Part shown: piece after piece, positions 7,886-39,460 of the stretch | How the letters are laid out: each line of letters opens with the position of its first letter | How positions within the stretch are numbered: the stretch's first letter is position 1 | Assembly: GCA_021371935.1 (NCBI GenBank) | Contig: JAJFVF010000022.1 | Coordinates: forward strand, 62,001 to 126,000 | DNA from: a bacterium | GTDB lineage: Bacteria > Armatimonadota > UBA5829 | Length of the DNA stretch: 64,000 nucleotides | Direction: 5' to 3' | The notes under the pieces: model-generated | Databases searched by the model: none | What the model was told of the DNA's origin: nothing | What the model saw: only the letters and a program-made list of their open reading frames with translations | Program-made: the position numbers and the translations under genes

Positions 7886-9370
7886 ATGTGTCTGGCATTG
7901 GCTAACCTGATGGACAATGCAGGTTATCAACTATACGAAAAGTCTCTGAGGAGAATTGACAATCAAATAAGCATATTCACCGTTGTCCGCCACGGAAGAA
8001 AACTTGTCGGTATGCTCGGACCAGAACATATCCACAGACTGGCCGATGAAACCGGTCCGGCAAGACTGAGACTATCCGCCGAAGAGAAAGTGACACTCCA
8101 CCCTTTGACCTGGGAAAATTATGTGCGTCTAAGACAGATGCTGCCTTTAGCTCCCTCAATATGTGGCAAAGCCGCTTCATTCGGTACTGGAGACAGGCTG
8201 GGAATGGTGAGCGCAGCACATCTTGAAGCAGACAATAAATTCCAGGTCTTTCCGGTAATAGCGCAGCAGTCGCCTCGTGAACTGGAGCGGACCAACCGAA
8301 CGTTCAAAAGCGTCCTTTTGGATGCAGTTATGGGCGTTCTGGAGTCAGGGTACACAGGCTCTTTCGGAGCGGATGCCGATCACATAAAGAATGACACGCA
8401 ATTCATGGAAGGTGTTGAGGCAGGTTACAGCATGTTCACACTCGACGTCAGTGACAACCTGCTGGATATAAGCAGCCTGTCTGCATCAGAGATTAATGAC
8501 GCGGCAAATAACCTGACCGAACTCAGCCGTGGAATAGCGAAAAGATATGCGGAAAAAACCATATCTCTTCCTGGTGAGCAGAATTATACATTCTCTGAGG
8601 ATGAACTGATCAGATCGGCCTTGGTATATGAGAAGTCCATGCTCCAAGCGGTGCGATTTTGTGGAATGGCCAGGACCAAGCTCGACGAGTTCGACCTTGA
8701 GATTTCAATTGACGAAGGCAGCCGCGAAACAACACCAGAAGATCACCTCTTCGTGGCTGAATTTCTGCACGCAAATAATGTCGATTTTACGAGTCTTGCA
8801 CCAAAGTTTCCTGGTCAGTTTCAGAAAGCGGTCGACTATAAAGGCAATTATGCAGAGTTGAAACGTTCTTTCAGTATCCATGGTGAACTGGCAAGACTCA
8901 TTGGTGGATATCGACTGAGTATGCACTCAGGCAGCGACAAGTTCAGCATATATGAAATCTTTGCTGAGATGACTCGGGGAAATTTCCATATCAAAACATC
9001 GGGCACAAGCTGGCTGCAGGCCGTAAGACTGATTGCACATACAAATTTGCAGCTGTTCAAAGACATGTATGATATCTGCATCGAGACCCTGCCAGAAAGC
9101 AAGAAGGCATATCATGTGGATATCACGCCTACCGACTTTCCCAATAAGCTCCCGTATGACGCGATCAGGTTCTTTGGGCAGCCGAATGTTCAGCAGCTAT
9201 TCCACATATCATATGGTGCACTGCTGGATGCAAAGCGGCCTGAAATCCTCGACACTCTGCACAAAAATGAGCAGCAGCATTACGCCTTTGTGACTGAGCA
9301 TATCGAAAGACACTTGAAACTGGCTTTCAATAAAAAAGGAGAGAAGTCCCCTTCTCTCCTGACGCCTTAG
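7886..9370 (+). CDS. uxaE: Tagaturonate/fructuronate epimerase-like protein (UxaE family)
   Basis: UxaE interconverts D-tagaturonate and D-fructuronate in uronate degradation. The 494 residues match the family in length and layout. GTGDRLGMVSAAH (near 100) is the first family signature; SFGADADHIKN near 155 and MFTLDV near 180 follow. HSGSDKFSIYEIFA (near 350) and the HVDITPTD / RQLFHISYG-like end complete it. The ATG has AAGGAG at good spacing. The assignment is from memory of the family, not a search. Oddly, the last 12 codons overlap a terminator that serves the opposite strand. Confidence 0.75.
   Translation: MCLALANLMDNAGYQLYEKSLRRIDNQISIFTVVRHGRKLVGMLGPEHIHRLADETGPARLRLSAEEKVTLHPLTWENYVRLRQMLPLAPSICGKAASFGTGDRLGMVSAAHLEADNKFQVFPVIAQQSPRELERTNRTFKSVLLDAVMGVLESGYTGSFGADADHIKNDTQFMEGVEAGYSMFTLDVSDNLLDISSLSASEINDAANNLTELSRGIAKRYAEKTISLPGEQNYTFSEDELIRSALVYEKSMLQAVRFCGMARTKLDEFDLEISIDEGSRETTPEDHLFVAEFLHANNVDFTSLAPKFPGQFQKAVDYKGNYAELKRSFSIHGELARLIGGYRLSMHSGSDKFSIYEIFAEMTRGNFHIKTSGTSWLQAVRLIAHTNLQLFKDMYDICIETLPESKKAYHVDITPTDFPNKLPYDAIRFFGQPNVQQLFHISYGALLDAKRPEILDTLHKNEQQHYAFVTEHIERHLKLAFNKKGEKSPSLLTP
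9332..9359 (-). terminator. Rho-independent terminator for minus-strand 52-codon gene
   Basis: On the minus strand GGAGAGAAG (9359-9351), loop GGGA, CTTCTCTCC (9346-9338), then TTTTTT. The 9-bp stem is perfect and starts 8 bases after the stop of the small gene. It lies inside the last codons of uxaE. Confidence 0.8.
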
Positions 9371-33266: not shown

Positions 33267-34289
33267 TTACATCGTCCGATCGACCGCGGAAGCAATACGC
33301 TTAAGTTCGCCCATCAGATGAGCGAATTTCTCTGGACGCAGAGACTGCGGACCATCACTCATGGCATGCGCCGGGTCATTGTGGACCTCCAGCAAAAGAC
33401 CATCGGCTCCGCCTGCCACCGCTGCTTTTGCCACAGCGCCGACATACTGCCAGTTGCCGGTGGCATGACTCGGGTCGAGCATTATGGGCAGATGAGTCCA
33501 GTTCTTGAGGACTGGGATCGCGTTGATATCGGTGGTGTTCCTGGTAGAGTCCTCGAATGTTGTGATTCCGCGCTCACACAGGATGACATTCTGGTTACCT
33601 TCGGAGATTACATATTCAGCAGACATGAGCAAATCCTTGACCTTGGAACCAAGACCACGCTTGAGCAGCACAGGCCGACCTGCCGCGCCGACCTTCTTGA
33701 GCAGAGCAAAGTTTTGCATGTTGCGTGCACCGATCTGCAGCACATCGGCATATTCACACACAAGATCGACCTCATGTGTGTCCATCACCTCGGTCACCAC
33801 CGGCAAACCGGTCTCTTTGCGTGCACTGGCAAGTATCTTGAGGCCATCCTCGCCAAGTCCCTGGAAAGCATACGGAGATGTCCTGGGCTTGAATGCCCCT
33901 CCGCGCAGCATCTTTGCGCCTGCCGCTTTTACTTGCTGCGCAAGCTCGACTGTCTGCGCCTCACTCTCAACAGAACATGGTCCGGCTGCGACGACTATCT
34001 CATCACCGCCTATCTTGACATCATTCACGCACACCACGGTATTCTCAGGATGATATGTCCGAGAGGCCAATTTCCACAGATCAGAAATCAGCTCTACCCT
34101 CGCAACACCCGCCATTGCATTGAAATGTTCGACAAGATCAGCCTTGCGAACATCTAACTCCCCGAGCACGGCAATTACTTTGCGCTCCACGCCGGGGTTC
34201 ATAAAGGGTCTGAAGCCTATTCGCCTGATATCCTGCTTTACCGATTTGACCTCATCCTCGGTAGCGTTTGTGTGCATAATGATAATCAT
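33267..34289 (-). CDS. aroF: 3-deoxy-7-phosphoheptulonate (DAHP) synthase, type I-beta
   Basis: First step of the shikimate pathway: PEP + erythrose-4-phosphate to DAHP. The 340-residue form has an N-terminal ferredoxin-like regulatory domain ([17 protein letters not shown] to ~70), then the KDOPS-like barrel with [44 protein letters not shown] and DPSHATG. The N-terminal domain in this group usually gives feedback control by aromatic amino acids. Stand-alone gene; no other aro genes nearby. Confidence 0.95.
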
Positions 34290-34333: not shown

Positions 34334-35176
34334 TCAAAATCCACACAGATGTTTATACCATACGTTCATACTCTCGGTGCTGCCGCAGATGTCGGTGTTG
34401 TTGATGAGTGTGCCGGCATACTCATAATTCATCTTGGCGAATGTAATATTCATCCCGGGAGATACGGACCGAGCTATGGTATACGCCGTCTTGATCGACC
34501 TCGCACACATCTCATCCTCCATCTTTGAAAGAAGGAAACCTGCAAACCCATGGCCGCGATAGTCAGGCAGAGTGGCAAAGTCGGTCATCTCAACGCTCTG
34601 CGCATCAAAGTCCATCTCAGAAGATGCAGCAGAGACCAGTTCCCCACCCCTGAACACGCAAAAATAGATGATATTATCTTTCATCGTCTCGCGTATGTAC
34701 TGTTCATCATGGATAGGGAATGGATAGGAGACAAAGACCTGCCGGTATATATTGCTTATTGAATGCGCATCAGACTCTTGTGCGATACGCCACTCGAAGC
34801 CCTCCGGCAGTTTCTCTCGGCAGCCTTTCAGGCGGTGCTGGCAAGCATTTGAAAGGACGTCGAGAATGATATCGGCATCCTTTTCGCACTCCCGCACCGT
34901 GGAGAAATATTTGCCCATAAACGATACATCGATACTGCCGTTATAGAAGCCTGGGACCGATGCTTCCGACTTGTATCCATTCGCTTCAAACTCGCTGCTT
35001 GCCCAACGTGGAACCTTTGCGATTATCTTGGTATAGCCATTGACCATGGCCATCTCATCGAGTCGGGCAATCACTTCAGGTATGTAAGAATCACCGAGTT
35101 TCATAAGATATATGCGGTTGCTCGACTTGCCATGCTGGAACAGACAGCCCTCTATTTTATCGATGACGTCAGGCAT
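34334..35176 (-). CDS. ablB: Beta-lysine N6-acetyltransferase (AblB-like)
   Basis: Acetylates beta-lysine to N-epsilon-acetyl-beta-lysine, a compatible solute. The 280-residue protein has an N-terminal AblB-specific part ([24 protein letters not shown]) and a C-terminal GNAT domain with [26 protein letters not shown], where RGHGFA is the acetyl-CoA loop. AAGGAGG lies 7 bases before the ATG, and the start overlaps the end of the symporter gene by 25 bp, so translation is coupled. The identity is strengthened by ablA two genes upstream. Confidence 0.9.
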
Positions 35177-36612
35177 TGCTCAACCTCCTTGCAAACCTTG
35201 GGCTTTCTGTCGGGGAAAAGAAGAGAAAATGATATGAACACGATCGCGGAAAGGACAATCCCATAAAAACTGGCATCCAGACCCAGCGGCATGCCCATGC
35301 CGGATATGAGCATGATGAGGGTGAAAGTGCCGCCTGAAAGCATTCCCCAAAATGCTCCCTTCGAGCTGCTCCTGCGCCAGAAATATGCGCCGAGTGTGGG
35401 AACGAACAAGCCCGAGACCATAAATGAGTAAGCATACAAAATTGCGTCGAGGACGGTATTAAAACGACTTGCCATCAGCACGGCCAGAACGCCGATTATC
35501 AGGGTGACGAACATCGAAAGACGCATTATCTTCCATTCGGGCGCATCTTTTATGAAATAGCGCTGTATTATGTCGTTGACGAAATTGCCTGAAGACGCCA
35601 TAAGGCAGCTGTCGGCGGTGGACATGATTGCCGAAAAGTATGCCGCCACAACGATGCCTGTGACACCTATAGGCAGCACCTCACGGATCAGTGTGGGAAG
35701 ACCCATTTCTGCTTCCACACTCGGAAAGAGAACCCGTGCGCACATCCCGAGGAATACTCCCATAAAGGCCATGATGGGATACTCGAAGATGCCCGCTATA
35801 AACCAGGCTTTCTTGGCTTCCGCCTCGTCCCTGCAGGCATACATGCGCTGGTATAGAGTCATGCCCACCAGCCATATTGGTATGATTGTCACCATCCAGT
35901 TGATGATCTGAACGGCGCTGACATTGGTAAGCGAGAAAAACCCAGGCGGGAGGCTGTCTTTGAGAGTATGCCAACCGCCCAATTCGTAGAGCGTTACTGG
36001 AATGGTGACGCATATGAGGCCAAAGAGCAGGATAAGCCACTGGATCGTATCGGTGTAGATCACGGCCTTGAGACCGCCGATCACCGTGTAGGCTATTACC
36101 ACACCAGCTATCGTGTAAAGCGAAAACTGAAATGGGTCGAACCCGAATGGAGCGCTCGTAAAGAGTGTCGCTGATGCAAGTTTTGCACCGGCAAGAACCT
36201 GGCCTCCCGTGAAACCCAAATATCCGATGCCCGAGATGACTGCTGCCAGAAGAGCCACACGCTCGCCGAATTTGAACCGAAGAAAATCGGGATAGGTGAG
36301 CATATTCTGCTTGGCATCGATTGCTTTGATGCGCGGAATCACCAGCACGGCAGTGAGCCACGCCCCAACCAGACCTGTAAAGAGCAGCCAGCTTCCAGAC
36401 AGGCCCATCAAGAAACCCAGACCTCCCAGACCTATCGAGAACCCGCCGCCTACATCTGTGGCCACAATCGACAGACCCACATGGTGTGCGCTTATGCTGC
36501 GGCTGCCTACATAATAGTCCTCAGCATTTTTGTTTTTGCGGTAATGATGGAACCCGACATACAGCACGACGGCCATATAGAGTATCAGGATAGCAAAGTC
36601 TACGACCGTCAC
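35152..36612 (-). CDS. Sodium:solute symporter (SSS family)
   Basis: Na+-coupled uptake carrier, 486 residues with about 13 membrane segments. [32 protein letters not shown] and [15 protein letters not shown] match the SSS pattern (the last is the Na+ site region). GTG at 36612 has AAGGAGG 8 bases before it and overlaps the ablA stop as GTGA. Placed between ablA and ablB, it could import an osmolyte or precursor such as lysine or betaine; the substrate is not readable. Confidence 0.88.
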
Positions 36613-37922
36613 TGCGCGTTCCTCCTTGCCATTCGTTCGCTGTCTTGAGGGATCAGAGCTATGGTCGAGTCTGAATCGGCCAACAGCTTGCATATTCCTT
36701 CCGCCTTGCCCTCATCCGCGCCGTCGAGCCTGAGCTGGAGTTTGCACTCGTTACAATTGCGGTCGCAAAAGACCGGTTCGTAGCTCTCGGGCTCCTGATA
36801 GGTCGTGATGACACCCTCATAGTTGCGCAGGACCACTTTGTTGGTGGACCAGGAGATAAGATAGTTTGGGATAATGGGAATCTTGCCGCCGCCGCCGGGA
36901 GCATCTATCACATAAGTGGGCACGCAGAATCCGCTGGTGTGGCCGATAAGACTCTCAATTATCTCGATGCCTTTGCCAATGGGTGTGCGGAAATGCGAAA
37001 GGCCCTCCGAAAGATCGCACTGATATAGATAATACGGCCTCACGCGGTTTGCGACGAGCTTGTGCACCAGCGCCTTCATGATCCGAGGACAATCGTTGAC
37101 TCCGGCCAACAGCACTGACTGGTTTCCAAGCGGAATTCCTGCATCAGCCAGCTTCGCCAGAGCCTGCTGGGAGGATTTGGTTATCTCCCTGGGATGGTTG
37201 AAATGGGTGTTGATCCACAAAGGATGATATTTGCGGAGCATCCGAACCAGGTTGTCGGTGATCCTCTGCGGAAGCACGACCGGCGTCCGCGTGCCTATCC
37301 TGATTACTTCGACATGTGGTATGTCTATGAGCAATGAAAGAATCCAGTCCAGATAGTCATCGGAGAGCATGAACGGATCGCCGCCCGATAGCAGCACGTC
37401 TCGGACTGTGGGAGTTTTCCTGATATACTCGACGCCCTCGAGAACCTCGCTCCTCGTAGGAATGTTCTCTTTGTCGCCGACCTTGCGCTTGCGGGTGCAG
37501 TGACGGCAATACATGGCGCATGTGTTGCTTACACGGAAGAGCACCCTGTCCGGGTATCGGTGCGTGATAAGCTCGGTGGGGCTGTCCCTGTCCTCGGCCA
37601 GAGGATCCACCATCTCATGCTCATCGATATGCAGTTCAGCCGAAGAGCAAAATGACTGCTTGAAGATGGGATCATTTTGGTAATCGTCAGTATCGATCAG
37701 AGAAAGATAATACGGAGTTATGCACAGCGGAAACCTGGATATTGTCATTTTGAGCAGCCTGCACTCCTCAAAGTCCAGACTGATATCCAGCAGTTTCTCG
37801 AACGTCTCTATACTTCTGATTGAGTGTGCGCACTGCCAGCGCCAGTCGTTCCAGTCAGCGGTCCGCACATGCGGATCGATTCGTTCCGCAATCTCGGTCT
37901 GCCTGTCTGTCAGGTTTATCAT
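36609..37922 (-). CDS. ablA: Lysine 2,3-aminomutase (radical SAM)
   Basis: Converts L-lysine to beta-lysine with SAM and PLP. The 437-residue protein shows [18 protein letters not shown] with the cluster motif CX3CX2C near residue 135, [30 protein letters not shown], and [17 protein letters not shown] with the PLP lysine. A C-terminal Cys cluster ([14 protein letters not shown]) is the structural zinc site. Followed by a symporter and ablB, it is best read as osmolyte synthesis rather than lysine fermentation. Confidence 0.95.
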
Positions 37923-37958: not shown

Positions 37959-39047
37959 CTATACGAGTTGTTCAGACGGCTGTGTGTCAGTCGTGCGCAT
38001 CTCGACCACGCGCACAGGGTAAGATATCTCGATTCCTTCCTCACGATAGCGGCGGTGAAGCCTCTTGATGAACTCATGGTGAATCAGATATTGACTGGCT
38101 ACATCTTTGGCTCTGAGGATGGTGAGGAAGTTGATGTTGGAATCGCCGAACTCTTTGAAGCGGACGATGGGCTCGAAATCGGTAACTGCTCCGGGCACAT
38201 CTTGCAGCACCTGCCTGCCGACATCTATGGTCACCTGCTCGACATAGTCCAGATCGCTATTGTAGCCCACACCGCACGATATGTAGACCGAAAGCTGCTG
38301 CTGAGGAAGATCGTAGTTGGTGAGTATGCTCTGGATCAACTTGGAATTCGGCACGATCACCGTGTTGTTGGCCCAAAGACGTATACGGGTGTTGCGCCAG
38401 CCGATGTCCTCGACGAAACCTTCGTCACCGGAATCGAGCTTGATGTAGTCTCCGGCCTTGACGGACCGGTCCGCCATTATATAGAACCCGGCGAATACGT
38501 TGGCCAGGGTATCCTGTAGAGCCAGGGCAACTGCCAAACCGGCTACGCCCAAAGTCGCGAGCAGAGCGCTGACTTTATAGCCGAGTTGACCCAAAGCAAG
38601 AGCAATCACTATCGCCCAGATTACTGCGTTGGCCAGCTTTTTTAGCACCCTGATCTGGTATGACGCACCTTTGGAACCGACAGAATGAATATACCACTCA
38701 GCTATTCCGTTGAGTACCCCAAGAATTCCCAGCGCCACGACTACGGTGAGGACCGCGCTCAAAATCTGACTGATTTTGCCCGAATATGCATCGAGCTTTA
38801 CGGCAGACAGCCCCCATATGTCCATATGTACGACGGTCGCGGCTGCACCGTATAGGCCGAGAGTGATTATCAAGAGCATCAGCGGACGTTCCAACGATTT
38901 GAAGATTACATCGTCGAACTCGGACTTGGTCCTGCTGTAGAACTTTCTAATGACATTTCGGAATATCCAGCGGGACAATAGTGCCAAAACAATCGAGCCC
39001 AGCAGAAAACTTGCCGCAGTGACCAGATGAACGGTTGTGCTAGACAT
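37959..39047 (-). CDS. MscS-family mechanosensitive channel
   Basis: Membrane valve opened by tension, 362 residues. Four N-terminal hydrophobic segments, then the MscS core: GVAGLAVALALQDTLANVFAG (pore helix TM3) and the beta domain with VKAGDYIKLDSGDEGFVEDIGWRNTRIR and NNTVIVPNSKL. AGGAG lies 7 bases before the ATG at 39047. It is the first gene of the four-gene operon and 36 bp upstream of ablA, pairing osmolyte release with osmolyte synthesis. Confidence 0.92.
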   Translation of the reverse strand: MSSTTVHLVTAASFLLGSIVLALLSRWIFRNVIRKFYSRTKSEFDDVIFKSLERPLMLLIITLGLYGAAATVVHMDIWGLSAVKLDAYSGKISQILSAVLTVVVALGILGVLNGIAEWYIHSVGSKGASYQIRVLKKLANAVIWAIVIALALGQLGYKVSALLATLGVAGLAVALALQDTLANVFAGFYIMADRSVKAGDYIKLDSGDEGFVEDIGWRNTRIRLWANNTVIVPNSKLIQSILTNYDLPQQQLSVYISCGVGYNSDLDYVEQVTIDVGRQVLQDVPGAVTDFEPIVRFKEFGDSNINFLTILRAKDVASQYLIHHEFIKRLHRRYREEGIEISYPVRVVEMRTTDTQPSEQLV

Positions 39048-39269
39048 CTCGCCACTCCTGTCCTGCCGCTTGCAAACAAGGCGAAAAGGCCGAAGAGGCT
39101 GACCGAACATTACATTTCATCGGATGACACTCCTTTCGCATGATGGCGTGGCAGCTATGGGCCGCGCTGCATCAGCGTGCCGAGTGACCGGTGAAACAGA
39201 AGACTATTTGCGCAGAAAGAAAGACATAGATATTTCGGCCGTAGAACTGGCCAAAAATGAGGTGTGAAT

Positions 39270-39402
39270 TGCCTCTTCCCCCACGCCTGCGAGGTTAGCT
39301 GACGGGCTGGGATCGGAAAGATGACCCCTCTATGATACTCATAGATTAGCCCCCAGAAACTGGGTCCCCCGCTCCTGTTTCACAGGATTCGGCGTATGTC
39401 GT
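39270..39402 (-). promoter_or_regulatory. c-di-AMP (ydaO/yuaA) riboswitch
   Basis: On the minus strand: CGCCGAATCCTG (39395-39384), ACAGGAGCGGGGGACCCA, CTGGGGGCTAATC, then AGAGGGGTCATCTTTCCG and the near-universal CCCGTCAGCTAACCTCG followed by CAGGCGTGGGGGAAG. These blocks in this order are the ydaO aptamer, which binds c-di-AMP and usually switches genes off. It lies about 220 bases before the mscS ATG, upstream of the mscS-ablA-symporter-ablB operon. No clear terminator follows, so control may be at another level. The 39048-39269 remainder holds no gene. Confidence 0.93.
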
Positions 39403-39431
39403 AGTTTATTTGGTTTACTTAACTTATCCGC

Positions 39432-39460
39432 ATTTTAGCACAGACGAGCTTCTAATGCAA
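39432..39460 (-). promoter_or_regulatory. Sigma-70-type promoter for the osmoadaptation operon
   Basis: Minus strand -35 TTGCAT (39460-39455), 17-bp spacer, -10 TAAAAT (39437-39432). The start would be about 25 bases before the riboswitch. Confidence 0.65.

Follow-up and report, generated by a model that had tools for sequence, protein, structure and literature searches.

A c-di-AMP riboswitch of the ydaO/yuaA class (RF00379) heads an osmolyte operon in the Armatimonadota genome studied here, and the arrangement in which this aptamer precedes the abl genes with mscS in the same operon appears to be new and recurs in distant Armatimonadota. The best overall explanation of the locus, which lies within the 64-kb stretch of DNA that we analyzed (the window), is very probably that of a c-di-AMP OFF switch governing an operon for both the synthesis of an osmolyte and the production of an MscS valve. 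c-di-AMP is best known for the control of K+ and osmolyte uptake.

We scanned the window against 4,227 Rfam families (cmscan), which recovered RF00379 at 39404..39268 on the minus strand and otherwise a tRNA only. The RF00379 match scored 92.6 bits (E = 1.8e-20; gathering score, 38 bits), spans the full length of the model (positions 1-134), contains CCCGTCAGCTAACCTCG, and has an intact invariant core, confirming the ydaO/yuaA leader proposed in the initial annotation; the RNA at 39404-39268 belongs to the RF00379 class of c-di-AMP riboswitches and is predicted to bind this ligand. No Na+-I aptamer was matched upstream of it in the same scan, and in this respect the leader differs from the tandem Na+/c-di-AMP logic gate. 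The host genome, 3.54 Mb in size and 98% complete, contains four copies of RF00379, and a genome-wide search identified a single DAC domain, that of a CdaA equivalog (TIGR00159, 217.2 bits versus a cut-off of 188.8) whose gene, in our reading of the locus, adjoins one for a YbbR-like protein. Since the riboswitch lies far above threshold and a diadenylate cyclase is present, both grounds on which the initial annotation might have been given up fall away. The features of the locus are as follows.

39432..39460, minus strand: probable promoter, identified by eye (TTGCAT, 17 nt, TAAAAT, with an extended -10, TGCTAAAAT)
39268..39404, minus strand: c-di-AMP riboswitch aptamer (ydaO/yuaA, RF00379; 92.6 bits by cmscan, 95.9 bits for the copy in the congener G003)
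39187..39267, minus strand: conserved leader 3' of the aptamer, putative expression platform, nearly identical in G003
39256-39233, minus strand: leader hairpin, part of the conserved leader
39225-39210, minus strand: pyrimidine strand GUCUUUCUUUCUGCGC, part of the conserved leader
39199-39191, minus strand: CUGUUUCAC, part of the conserved leader
39040..39120, minus strand: possible 26-codon upstream open reading frame (ORF) behind AAAGGAG (39136-39130), read from the sequence
37959..39047, minus strand: mscS, MscS-type mechanosensitive channel (Pfam PF00924, PF21082, PF21088)
36609..37922, minus strand: ablA, lysine 2,3-aminomutase (TIGR03820, 764.8 bits versus a cut-off of 525.4)
35152..36693, minus strand: SSS-family sodium:solute symporter (PF00474, E = 5e-51; other phyla also have the order ablA-SSS-ablB)
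34334..35176, minus strand: ablB, beta-lysine N-acetyltransferase (TIGR03827, 333.8 bits versus a cut-off of 205.1)
33267..34289, minus strand: DAHP synthase (TIGR01361), 44 nt behind ablB

Downstream of the riboswitch the minus strand reads mscS-ablA-SSS symporter-ablB and then DAHP synthase, and the Pfam and TIGR equivalog matches agree with the operon content first proposed (mscS, ablA, a symporter, and ablB). The mscS product has the TM2/3, beta, and C-terminal domains of the family (PF21088, PF00924, and PF21082, all above cut-offs); its likely start is at 39047, behind AGGAG in our reading, about 220 nt from the aptamer on the same strand, and its longest frame runs from 39110. A gap of 36 nt separates mscS from ablA, and both equivalogs of N-epsilon-acetyl-beta-lysine biosynthesis (ablA and ablB) lie above their cut-offs in one cluster. 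The start of the symporter is uncertain, with a longest frame that overlaps ablA. Judging from this spacing, the four genes are assumed to form one transcript. DAHP synthase, which follows ablB directly both here and in G003, has no evident role in an osmolyte operon and is possibly a read-through member.

The coupling of this riboswitch to abl genes is shared with relatives. Among 291 Armatimonadota genomes, AblB was above its cut-off in 5, and in 4 of these RF00379 heads the abl genes; mscS is also in the operon in 3 of those 4, each with a gene order of its own. In G003, a member of the same genus, the aptamer lies 141 nt before ablA without mscS; the locus is split between a contig carrying switch-ablA-SSS and another carrying SSS-ablB-DAHP synthase, which we infer to be parts of a full ablA-SSS-ablB operon. 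Two genomes of a distant family have the orders RF00379-ablA-ablB-mscS (G232) and RF00379-dapB-ablA-ablB-mscS-amino-acid ABC transporter (G231). The link is not obligatory, since in an order-level relative (G015) ablA of the ablA-SSS-ablB cluster is immediately preceded by a MarR-type gene, and the 19 kb examined there contain no RF00379. The recurrence of the layout supports c-di-AMP control of osmolyte genes, as had initially been suggested.

How the aptamer might act was assessed from the leader. The initial annotation had included a sigma-70 promoter; a consensus promoter scan called none on the minus strand of the leader, and the site listed above, not a strong consensus, is plausible as a promoter and is conserved in G003 as TTGCAA-17 nt-TAGAAT in our reading of the alignment. 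The same alignment shows that approximately 80 nt 3' of the aptamer are common to the window species and G003. Within this region, possible partners of GUCUUUCUUUCUGCGC are the 3' strand of P1 (-18.4 kcal/mol in the window, -19.4 kcal/mol in G003) and, alternatively, the Shine-Dalgarno region (-12.5 and -19.0 kcal/mol, respectively), albeit with window energies not far from those of shuffled sequences (p = 0.06 and 0.2). CUGUUUCAC and its neighbors can pair with a strand of P2 at an energy reached by 0 of 500 shuffles for the window and by 1.4% for G003. When the window leader was folded without constraints, both alternative pairings appeared. Constrained equilibrium folding, comparing aptamer-forced and free leaders, gave no clean two-state difference between a masked and an unmasked ribosome-binding site.

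Most ydaO riboswitches act by premature transcription termination, and the window leader could do the same if a terminator were formed by the AAGAGG/CCUC hairpin, with the U run at 39257-39253, or by the GGCC hairpin that follows. The same aptamer is directly followed by a terminator hairpin with a U run in G232 and G231 (-26.3 and -20.7 kcal/mol), terminators also follow RF00379 aptamers before other targets in the host genome, and the corresponding G003 hairpin, GGGAAGAGG/CCUCUUUUU, is stronger at -9.0 kcal/mol. Against these points, a terminator scan called no intrinsic terminator in the window leader, where we rejected the AAGAGG/CCUC hairpin as a candidate (-4.4 kcal/mol, z = 0.5 versus shuffles), the GGCC hairpin has no U tract, and a switch whose first hairpin formed in the ligand-free state would have the reverse polarity; termination here is on balance unlikely. 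An antiterminator formed by P1 and the left arm of the terminator in G231 and G232 is possible, but its pairing did not stand out from that of shuffled sequences (p = 0.39 and 0.09, respectively). Given a working switch, we lean slightly toward an action of the window leader on translation.

Regulation might instead be directed mainly at mscS or at the short upstream peptide, with the abl genes transcribed independently. Here mscS is the first gene, 36 nt ahead of ablA, and may be coupled to the upstream ORF, whose stop overlaps the likely mscS start; however, the same conserved leader stands straight before ablA in G003, which has no mscS there, and mscS comes after ablA-ablB in G231 and G232, leaving the abl genes as the constant partner and making this reading improbable. 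That the aptamer is a degenerate or chance match without function is barely credible given its score and E value, full length and intact core, its retention at the same place in G003, and the ligand synthase (CdaA) encoded in the genome.

Outside the phylum we examined the best 80 of 336 ablB loci from one-per-species genomes, a sample in which many contigs are short and which gives no estimate of prevalence. RF00379 occurred within the fetched stretch in 3 of these 80 best-scoring loci and directly before ablA-ablB in 1, from an Actinomycetes MAG (L175); in a relative of that MAG (G636) ablAB is present and RF00379 was not found. Two candidates for further cases were rejected after their translations were read: the RF00379 of L132 heads TrkH/TrkA, and that of L149, a Bacillota MAG (79 bits, 7946-8183), lies behind ablB and precedes an asparagine-synthase-like gene, asnB. 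No further case was found among four genomes of the Desulfitobacteriaceae order. The abl genes have an MscS gene as neighbor at seven loci of Methanoperedens-type or other euryarchaeal origin (L123, L124, L131, L133, L134, L136, and L155) and at two of Desulfuromonadaceae/Geobacter. Clusters in Planctomycetota, Kiritimatiellota, Chlorobiota, and Ignavibacteriota have the same ablA-SSS-ablB order and symporter type (about 60 to 69% identity) as the window but no RF00379 nearby.

A phylogenetic analysis of AblA (38 rows) required at least three state changes for association with the switch and rejected a single clade of switch-associated proteins (AU p = 3.4e-8); the Armatimonadota proteins themselves form two well-separated lineages (AU p = 1.4e-4). 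Because switch-bearing AblA proteins fall in separate lineages, the switch has probably been recruited to abl genes repeatedly. What the tree counts is several associations; the leader itself need not have been invented several times, since the same pattern would arise if protein genes were transferred to a site behind a leader already in place. Recurrence in unrelated AblA lineages and in different gene orders points to selection for the coupling.

Other RF00379 targets were seen in the host and its relatives. One aptamer ends a few nucleotides before a gene for a STAS-domain (anti-sigma-antagonist-like) protein (L008:7437-7955, G000:C10), a layout also present in G002, G003, G004, G005, G006, G009, G010, G013, G015, and G017; the purine-rich 3' end of such aptamers (e.g., AGGAAGGA) appears to double as a Shine-Dalgarno sequence, forming a compact translational switch. 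Another, followed by a strong terminator, heads genes for a metallophosphoesterase and an AAA/SMC-like ATPase (L007:4242-7759, G000:C2; similar in G001, G004, G006, and G010). This pair resembles SbcD-SbcC/Mre11-Rad50 while scoring below equivalog cut-offs, and the layout suggests c-di-AMP control of what may be a DNA-repair nuclease. A further copy (L006:3914-6882, G000:C22:250746-250881) heads an octopine/nopaline-dehydrogenase-like gene, followed in G000 by one for a B12-binding-domain protein; similar layouts in G002, G007, G011, G015, G017, and G023 show conservation beyond the order.

We infer OFF polarity for the window switch from the tested Dehalobacter ablA switch, the terminator-bearing relatives, Streptomyces rpfA, and the usual behavior of the class. 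When turgor and ions suffice, c-di-AMP from the single CdaA would be high, the aptamer would fold, and expression would stop; under hyperosmotic stress or ion need, c-di-AMP would be low and the operon expressed. Without ligand, two conserved downstream strands would each engage a helix of the aptamer, one the 3' strand of P1 and the other P2; with ligand the strand released from P1 may mask the ribosome-binding site, a step that the folding energies support poorly. Once on, the operon would yield N-acetyl-beta-lysine, perhaps with import of solute by the symporter, and would install the MscS valve ahead of a later drop in osmolarity. The initial annotation had assigned mscS to osmolyte release. 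The channel stands on its MscS domains, but simultaneous release does not follow: MscS serves as a safety valve, opened by osmotic down-shock, and its production alongside the solute amounts to preparation. We tentatively propose, at slightly less than even confidence, that a module to "accumulate and vent" (synthesis of an osmolyte together with an MscS valve, in some cases also lysine supply and a symporter) has been assembled under a c-di-AMP switch several times independently, with terminator-free, three-strand translational gating by P1/P2 competition in the window genus.

Such a design would have one RNA switch couple compatible-solute synthesis to the production of a channel able to release the solute, which would explain how the cell avoids filling with solute without a valve. 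Novelty had been claimed for the switch ahead of beta-lysine genes, which goes too far as it stands and is right in part, for the three-part combination: a switch before ablA (PMC9337991) and an mscS-like/kamA/ablB operon (PMC11337218) are each published, and full-text literature searches found no report of switch, mscS, and abl together, older reports in the subscription literature being possible.

In Dehalobacter sp. CF, a tandem Na+-I/c-di-AMP riboswitch precedes ablA and c-di-AMP causes termination in vitro, and in Acetivibrio cellulolyticus a tandem of the same kind precedes dapB (White et al. 2022, PMC9337991). Like the window, these systems place a c-di-AMP aptamer over lysine 2,3-aminomutase or dapB, with N-acetyl-beta-lysine or its precursor lysine as output; the window switch differs in standing alone with no clear terminator, in an operon that adds mscS, the symporter, and ablB, and in belonging to Armatimonadota. 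"Ca. Methanoperedens" has a ynaI(mscS-like)-kamA-ablB operon that is reported to be up-regulated at higher salinity (PMC11337218), which also sets an MscS-type channel beside lysine aminomutase and ablB and whose regulation fits the making of the valve together with the solute; unlike the window it is archaeal, and the loci checked lack RF00379 over a distance of 7 kb. The Bacillus ydaO/yuaA switches and that of Streptomyces rpfA, where c-di-AMP lowers expression through an RF00379-family switch (PMC10117811), share the aptamer family of the window, whereas they control transporters of K+ and amino acids and enzymes of the cell wall. The finding extends, and does not overturn, the known links of the switch to ablA and of mscS to the abl operon.
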